Shown one piece after another: positions 21,104 to 22,518 of a stretch of 55,825 nt of DNA. This DNA is from a virus. How positions within the stretch are numbered: the first letter of the stretch is position 1; each line of letters begins with the position of its first letter. The DNA is taken from positions 1 through 55,825 of IMG/VR virus record IMGVR_UViG_3300017706_000806. One strand, written 5' to 3'. The notes beneath the pieces are model-generated. The model made no database searches and was not told the origin of the DNA. It saw nothing but the letters and a program-made list of their open reading frames with translations. The position numbers and the translations under genes were made by a program.

Positions 21104-21448
21104 TTATATATATAATGCTGCTACTGTAACCGAAGCTGCAGCAGTATAATTAATTGTTAATTGTCCAGATGCATCATTGAATGCGCTTGTTTCAAATGGT
21201 CCTAAAAAACCTTCTTCTCCTGCTGCAAGTGTTAGGCTTGCCGTTTCCTTTACAAGATCACCTAATAAAGGATCAACTACTGTCGTTATAACAGGAACAA
21301 CAGATGAAGTAACAGATACACCACTTCCATTTTTAACATGAAAATACTGAATACCTGTATTAACCAATATATCTCCAGCTACAGTAGCTGCACTATAGAC
21401 TGGTTTTAAACCAGCTTGTGTAATTTCTTGTGCTGTTAATATTGCCAT
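21104..21448 (-). CDS. Small beta-rich virion protein (114 aa)
   Basis: A Thr/Val/Ala-rich protein (MAILTAQEITQAGLKPVYSA...) with alternating short strands and a 'LTLAAGEEGFLGPFETSAFN' segment. This is the profile of small phage decoration or fibre-attachment proteins. It is located four bases upstream of the tail fibre gene in the direction of transcription, so a joint structural role is likely. I cannot assign a precise position in the particle. Confidence 0.5.
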   Translation of the reverse strand: MAILTAQEITQAGLKPVYSAATVAGDILVNTGIQYFHVKNGSGVSVTSSVVPVITTVVDPLLGDLVKETASLTLAAGEEGFLGPFETSAFNDASGQLTINYTAAASVTVAALYI

Positions 21449-21697: not shown

Positions 21698-21778
21698 TTA
21701 TTTATTTAAATGTGAACCATCACAGTTTCCATTAGGATCCTGAGTATTTCCACATAAACATGTTGTTTTCTTTTCCAT
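21698..21778 (-). CDS. 26-residue CDGSH-type iron-sulfur-like microprotein
   Basis: An 81-base ORF fits exactly between the flanking genes, with four bases free on each side. It encodes MEKKTTCLCGNTQDPNGN followed by CDGSHLNK. The C-x-C ... C-D-G-S-H arrangement is the ligand set (three Cys, one His) of CDGSH/mitoNEET 2Fe-2S proteins. The spacing between the second and third Cys is nine residues; eight is usual. Known CDGSH proteins are longer, so this would be almost only the metal loop. Cluster or zinc binding and function are inferred. Precise packing and an exact CDGSH signature make chance unlikely. Confidence 0.65.
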   Translation of the reverse strand: MEKKTTCLCGNTQDPNGNCDGSHLNK

Positions 21779-22059: not shown

Positions 22060-22518
22060 TTATCTTTTATTATCTATTGCTTTAAATTTTTCAACACCCC
22101 TAGAACCAAAGTATGCTACATAAACAGTTATAAGTAATGACTTTAATAAGTCAACCCATTGTGGTTCTACCTGGAATCCCCAATCAAAACTATCTAACAA
22201 CATAAATATGATCATTGATATTGTTAAAAATATCAAAGCCATTGGTCTTGTATTTTTACTAAGCCATGAGTCTGATGTCATATCACTAGACCAACGCTTA
22301 CTAATTTCTTGCATCTCAACCATGTCTTGCTCTAATAACTTTAAAGCAATTTCTTTATCTTCAGGTGAAATATTAGCATCTTTTGAAATAAGATTTTTAA
22401 CAATACCCAATACACCTTTGTCCGGTAATAAATCACCTGCAACATCAAGTACTGCTGGAGCAGTTTTGCTTAAAAACTTACCCAACTTGGTATCTCTAAA
22501 TTTCTTTTTCTTATCCAC
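22060..22518 (-). CDS. Holin, 3-TM gene-transfer-agent type
   Basis: The 152-residue protein starts with GTG, sharing its first base with the TAG of the upstream gene. The cytoplasmic N-terminus has an amphipathic helix (FLSKTAPAVLDVAGDLLP). The C-terminal half has WLSKNTRPMALIFLTISMII (85-104), a second hydrophobic segment near 121-138 and the closing signature YFGSRGVEKF. This is the layout of the GTA_holin_3TM family: a 'W.s..RP' entry, membrane segments and a 'yfg.R..eK' exit. It would form lesions in the inner membrane for lysis. No endolysin is visible in this window. Confidence 0.75.
   Translation of the reverse strand: MDKKKKFRDTKLGKFLSKTAPAVLDVAGDLLPDKGVLGIVKNLISKDANISPEDKEIALKLLEQDMVEMQEISKRWSSDMTSDSWLSKNTRPMALIFLTISMIIFMLLDSFDWGFQVEPQWVDLLKSLLITVYVAYFGSRGVEKFKAIDNKR

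Follow-up and report, generated by a model that had tools for sequence, protein, structure and literature searches.

A 26-residue microprotein encoded in the window (the whole stretch of DNA analysed here, a virus record of 55,825 bases) is a real gene, and its metal-binding ligands are kept. It is an accessory gene, found either intact or cleanly missing at its locus. From its sequence we read the microprotein as a new, minimal variant, similar to the CDGSH iron-sulfur proteins and perhaps alike in function, that stands outside that family as currently defined. A 17-residue CDGSH-type module plus short tails makes up the entire protein; nine residues separate C9 from C19, and T12 occupies the Ser/Thr position of the module (Table 1).

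Table 1. Features of the microprotein locus (positions in the window).
Feature	Position	Strand	Remarks
Nine-gap CDGSH microprotein MEKKTTCLCGNTQDPNGNCDGSHLNK, 26 aa	21698..21778, stop included	minus	ORF translation
Metal-site module CLCGNTQDPNGNCDGSH	21710..21760	minus	ligands C7, C9, C19, H23; T12; DxxG turn
Upstream neighbour, 85 aa, glycine-rich small phage protein	21783..22040	minus	stop 4 nt before microprotein ATG
Downstream neighbour, 79 aa	21454..21693	minus	start 4 nt after microprotein stop; syntenic partner conserved in relatives
Holin, phrog_3427, E 4.7e-19	22060..22518	minus	recurrent neighbour of phage nine-gap microproteins
Tail protein, phrog_16194, E 1e-8	21104..21448	minus	member of the microprotein's cassette

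The initial annotation of this ORF, that it carries all four CDGSH ligands and that its flanking genes leave exactly the space it needs, agrees with the sequence, in which a gap of 4 nt lies on either side. On the minus strand the genes follow the order 120-aa gene, holin (phrog_3427), 85-aa gene, microprotein, 79-aa gene, phrog_16194 and a 1179-aa tail-like protein. The virion/lysis cluster proposed earlier is better described as a lysis/tail-fibre cassette (phrog_3427, phrog_16194), a context that does not mark the microprotein as a virion protein. The ORF had also been set among crAss-like genomes, and its nine-residue gap against the usual eight. It is no crAss oddity, and the gap is no anomaly: nine residues characterise a large family common to phages and marine bacteria. 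A crAss-like origin of the window itself is weakly suggested; its 1876-aa protein is ~22% identical to crAss-like RNA-polymerase-region proteins over 20–30% of its length.

Of 300 simulated windows (order-2 Markov), none contained the motif. In IMG/VR, the DNA pattern CxCG-x8-CDG[ST]H, which places nine residues between Cys2 and Cys3, matched at least 120 stretches, whereas an out-of-frame control (23-nt gap) matched once. Versions of the nine-gap pattern with a ligand replaced gave one (His to Tyr), two (His to Gln) and three (Cys2 to Ser) matches; the translations of all six were noise, with stops in most. Motif position 6, which was left free in the search pattern, was Ser or Thr in 84 of the 86 new matches listed. 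The four ligands were invariant across 49 aligned members, as the searches themselves required. Close pairs of full-length genes had a dN/dS of 0.19 (phages) and 0.11 (bacteria); restricted to codons that the search patterns left free, the values were 0.30 and 0.18, respectively. The ORF is coding and under purifying selection, its ligands are constrained and its genomic linkage is established. The pattern controls and dN/dS bear out the earlier view of a CDGSH-like microprotein and show that it is genuine and selected as a protein. That the ORF is non-functional, or arose by chance between two closely spaced genes, would suit the length of just 26 codons and the lack of the microprotein in some close relatives, but recurrence that is specific to ligands and frame, purifying selection and conserved synteny leave it a negligible probability. 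The pattern and selection controls rule out chance, a degenerate remnant and an annotation artefact alike.

Gene order was compared in 80 loci that had been retrieved via the holin, with the microprotein not used as bait. Seven of these contained the microprotein at the same place, in two kinds (L176-type and L190-type). In L057, L091/102/108/117, L176/178/181/186 and L190–192, the microprotein was present with all four ligands and the same gene order. It was missing from 13 relatives that share its neighbours (L172–174, L177, L179, L180, L182–185 and L187–189); here, the 79-aa gene directly follows the 85-aa-like or another small gene. No degenerate copy was found among the relatives with the same gene order. 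The initial annotation had named absence of the ORF or loss of its ligands in such relatives as evidence against it; ligand loss was not seen, and clean absence was, in the 13 loci.

The CISD/NEET proteins (Pfam PF09360) comprise types 1–7 and share the consensus hydrophobic-CXCXX(S/T)XXXP-hydrophobic-CDG, with an eight-residue gap; their definition includes an N-terminal beta-strand, a GP-motif lid-proline and a beta-sandwich dimerisation module (Lin et al., 2011; PMC3174974). The nine-gap family has the CxC...CDG(S/T/A)H ligands, the invariant CDG and the Ser/Thr three residues after Cys2 in common with them. It differs in its Cys2–Cys3 gap of nine, in the lack of a hydrophobic residue before Cys1, and in a [D/N]xxG where CISDs have xP-hydrophobic (Gly takes the CISD Pro position in 81 of the 86 nine-gap matches listed). 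In the window microprotein, Thr precedes Cys1 and Asn precedes CDGSH, in place of the hydrophobic flanks of CISDs. With a total of 22–45 aa, the microproteins are without beta-strands, lid-proline and dimerisation sandwich, and the 26 residues of the window protein offer no sequence for any of these elements.

Against Pfam PF09360, the window protein gave no match and its relatives scored 11.8–15.2 bits, below the gathering score of 29.5. A family profile searched against the PDB returned CISD/NEET chains as seven of its eight matches (3TBM, E 8e-4, then 3TBN, 3TBO, CISD2 and plant NEET); the near-exclusive return of CISDs supports the kinship. AlphaFold2 models of two relatives were of low confidence (pLDDT 64 and 50), too weak for a comparison of fold or dimer. 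Since the ligands and Ser/Thr agree with the CISD definition, and the spacing, proline, flanks, fold and Pfam score do not, we regard the microprotein as a variant rather than a member of the defined family. Most free-standing nine-gap copies are 22–45 aa long, in keeping with the earlier remark that the ORF product would, if it folds, be among the smallest proteins of CDGSH-like type. Opitutae members carry two motifs in tandem on one chain, as do the type 6 CISDs (MmCISD 3TBN, human Miner2/CISD3), but are 54–72 aa long, with a linker of ~8–13 residues and hardly any hydrophobic residues.

In PHROGs and NCBIfam no CDGSH family was matched, and the open-licence literature searched held no paper joining CDGSH with YceI and none on phage CDGSH microproteins. 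This family of 22–45-residue metal-site proteins is apparently undescribed so far. The usual lower limit of gene-callers is 30 codons; the conserved family lies largely under it, and most of its members are too short for ordinary gene-finders.

In GTDB genomes, the nine-gap scan matched at least 120 stretches. The bacterial matches listed came mainly from marine Flavobacteriia (e.g. Polaribacter), in which free-standing members of 26–35 aa dominate. Around one Polaribacter genome, the microprotein was present in 27 of 98 genomes of the genus and in 15 of 299 of the family; in a phylum sample of 395 genomes, the query genome itself gave the sole strong match. Most of the Flavobacteriaceae genomes that encode the microprotein are small (1.2–2.7 Mb), which hints at pelagic, streamlined hosts.

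A YceI gene (PF04264) lies directly upstream of 64 of the 86 bacterial microproteins listed, and in seven longer bacterial copies the module forms an N-terminal fusion with YceI. At 17 bacterial loci an HxlR regulator is encoded divergently. At 15 loci an FMN reductase gene (PF03358) lies downstream, beginning 12 nt after the motif end of the motif-bearing gene, and DoxX is sometimes encoded alongside the microprotein in marine bacteria. From their gene content, the YceI/microprotein loci look like redox-stress operons. This set of YceI and HxlR, sometimes with FMN reductase or DoxX, fits a role as redox carrier or sensor. One precedent is BcnA, which we take to belong to the YceI family. Together with its cytochrome b561 partner, the lipocalin BcnA guards envelope membranes from lipid peroxyl radicals (PMC9113575), and mitoNEET, when a flavin reductase is present, takes electrons from FMNH2 and hands them to oxygen or ubiquinone (PMC9490426). 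The operon of YceI, microprotein and FMN reductase matches parts of both systems, from which we infer an electron carrier or redox sensor. As in the BcnA–LcoA pair (PMC9113575), a YceI-family protein in the bacterial loci would be joined by a partner from its own operon that can carry electrons. In the microprotein loci examined, unlike in that pair, this partner is a CDGSH microprotein, and HxlR, FMN reductase or DoxX is often encoded as well.

We give an even chance to the reading that the microprotein is a minimal CDGSH-type 2Fe-2S protein, acting as a redox carrier or sensor in bacteria and late at the envelope in phages; its cluster type, electron carriage and phage role are drawn from sequence and context. 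The microprotein would most likely hold a single [2Fe-2S] cluster with 3Cys-1His ligation in which, as in mitoNEET, one iron is bound by CxC and the other by CxxxH. As there is no hydrophobic core, folding would have to be metal-driven, perhaps aided by a partner or by dimerisation. In bacteria, the small protein could act between a flavin reductase and an envelope system that handles quinones or lipid radicals, either carrying one electron at a time or sensing redox state. Against this reading, the microproteins lack the spacing, the proline and the hydrophobic flanks of known CISDs, as well as their dimerisation module. If a 2Fe-2S cluster is bound, the microproteins would rank with the smallest iron-sulfur proteins in nature, holding it without the dimer scaffold of solved CDGSH proteins and allowing a direct test of the minimal requirements for doing so.

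Further bacterial fusions place the nine-gap module at the C-terminus of bS16, a ribosomal protein, and of a PSP1-domain protein. These fusions would suit RNA or protein binding and thus a zinc knuckle, in which the C3H site holds structural zinc and the microprotein serves as a small adaptor that binds proteins or nucleic acids. Phage fusions to proteins with a weak Rho_N/SAP-like match and the lack of a hydrophobic core point the same way, and CxC also occurs in zinc motifs such as SEC-C. The CDGSH pentapeptide is nevertheless retained unchanged, as is the Ser/Thr that characterises iron-sulfur CISDs; moreover, the bacterial operons have a redox theme and the PDB profile matches are nearly all 2Fe-2S CISDs, which makes a zinc knuckle rather unlikely. 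Among the fusions, three verrucomicrobial bS16 proteins (L245, L249 and L315) bear the module on a long acidic C-terminal tail; L245, the one scanned, was identified by PF00886 (E 4e-21). The PSP1-domain protein (L234, RicT/YaaT-like) has 383 aa, with the module at its end.

Among nine-gap matches listed in viral contigs, 126 of 205 are ORFs of at most 45 aa, and the IMG/VR counts are lower bounds on family size. The strongest association of the microprotein in phages is with holin and endolysin genes. A holin of the window's family lay within 3 kb on the same strand for 55 of the 98 distinct phage microproteins listed, which are not independent and form 25 similarity groups, 12 of them with a holin neighbour; counting a recurrent endolysin family as well raised the number to 65 of 98. 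By comparison, a holin lay within 3 kb of five of 69 longer nine-gap proteins (Fisher p 1e-11 versus the microproteins) and of none of 97 eight-gap proteins (Fisher p 1e-21). The latter form a separate class in phages, with the classical proline and a median of 59 aa. YceI, FMN reductase and HxlR were found in none of the phage loci, so the bacterial role may not hold in phages. When 50,697 phage records were searched by tblastn with the microprotein and with three of its variants, no relative was returned, and hence no isolated phage carrying the microprotein among these records; the holin region of Nonlabens phage P12024L contained no CDGSH ORF.

Phages carry the microprotein alone, in a late lysis/tail cassette; expressed together with the lysis genes, it would come into play late and close to the envelope. 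Under the 2Fe-2S reading, its most likely role would be that of a late redox carrier or iron-sulfur sensor in envelope protection or lysis timing. We consider it possible, if doubtful, that 22–30-residue single-cluster Fe-S proteins, overlooked by gene-callers, are widespread as stand-alone electron carriers that partner YceI in marine bacteria, and that the phages of these bacteria use them, from the lysis cassette, to control envelope redox state or lysis. The family connects an unexplained accessory gene of phages with a host operon whose redox role can be tested. A rival view, in which the microprotein is an iron-loaded part of the virion or tail and aids marine phages in using iron-uptake receptors, as in the 'Ferrojan horse' literature (e.g. 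PMC11705849), would account for the position of the window gene between lysis and tail genes and for the module within long proteins resembling phage structural proteases (L461, L471, L479 and L521). It is distinctly improbable, given that holin and endolysin are the strongest link and that the same microprotein occurs in non-viral bacterial operons.

The long proteins L461, L471, L479 and L521 start with MKIVKLDIDENSILAGIDAVALVEQPAIEEDF and are possibly XkdF-like structural proteases. The nine-gap microproteins L005, L009, L012 and L463, several of them holin-adjacent, have a C-terminal tail in common like LFDMNNLPFPYL. In L446, L496 and L010, the nine-gap module is followed by a cysteine-rich tail (KITxxKxxLxWC...CC) that could form a second metal site. 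An eight-gap minimal CDGSH motif stands at the N-terminus of the long phage proteins L328, L334 and L329, which by eye resemble 2-oxoglutarate/Fe(II) oxygenases.
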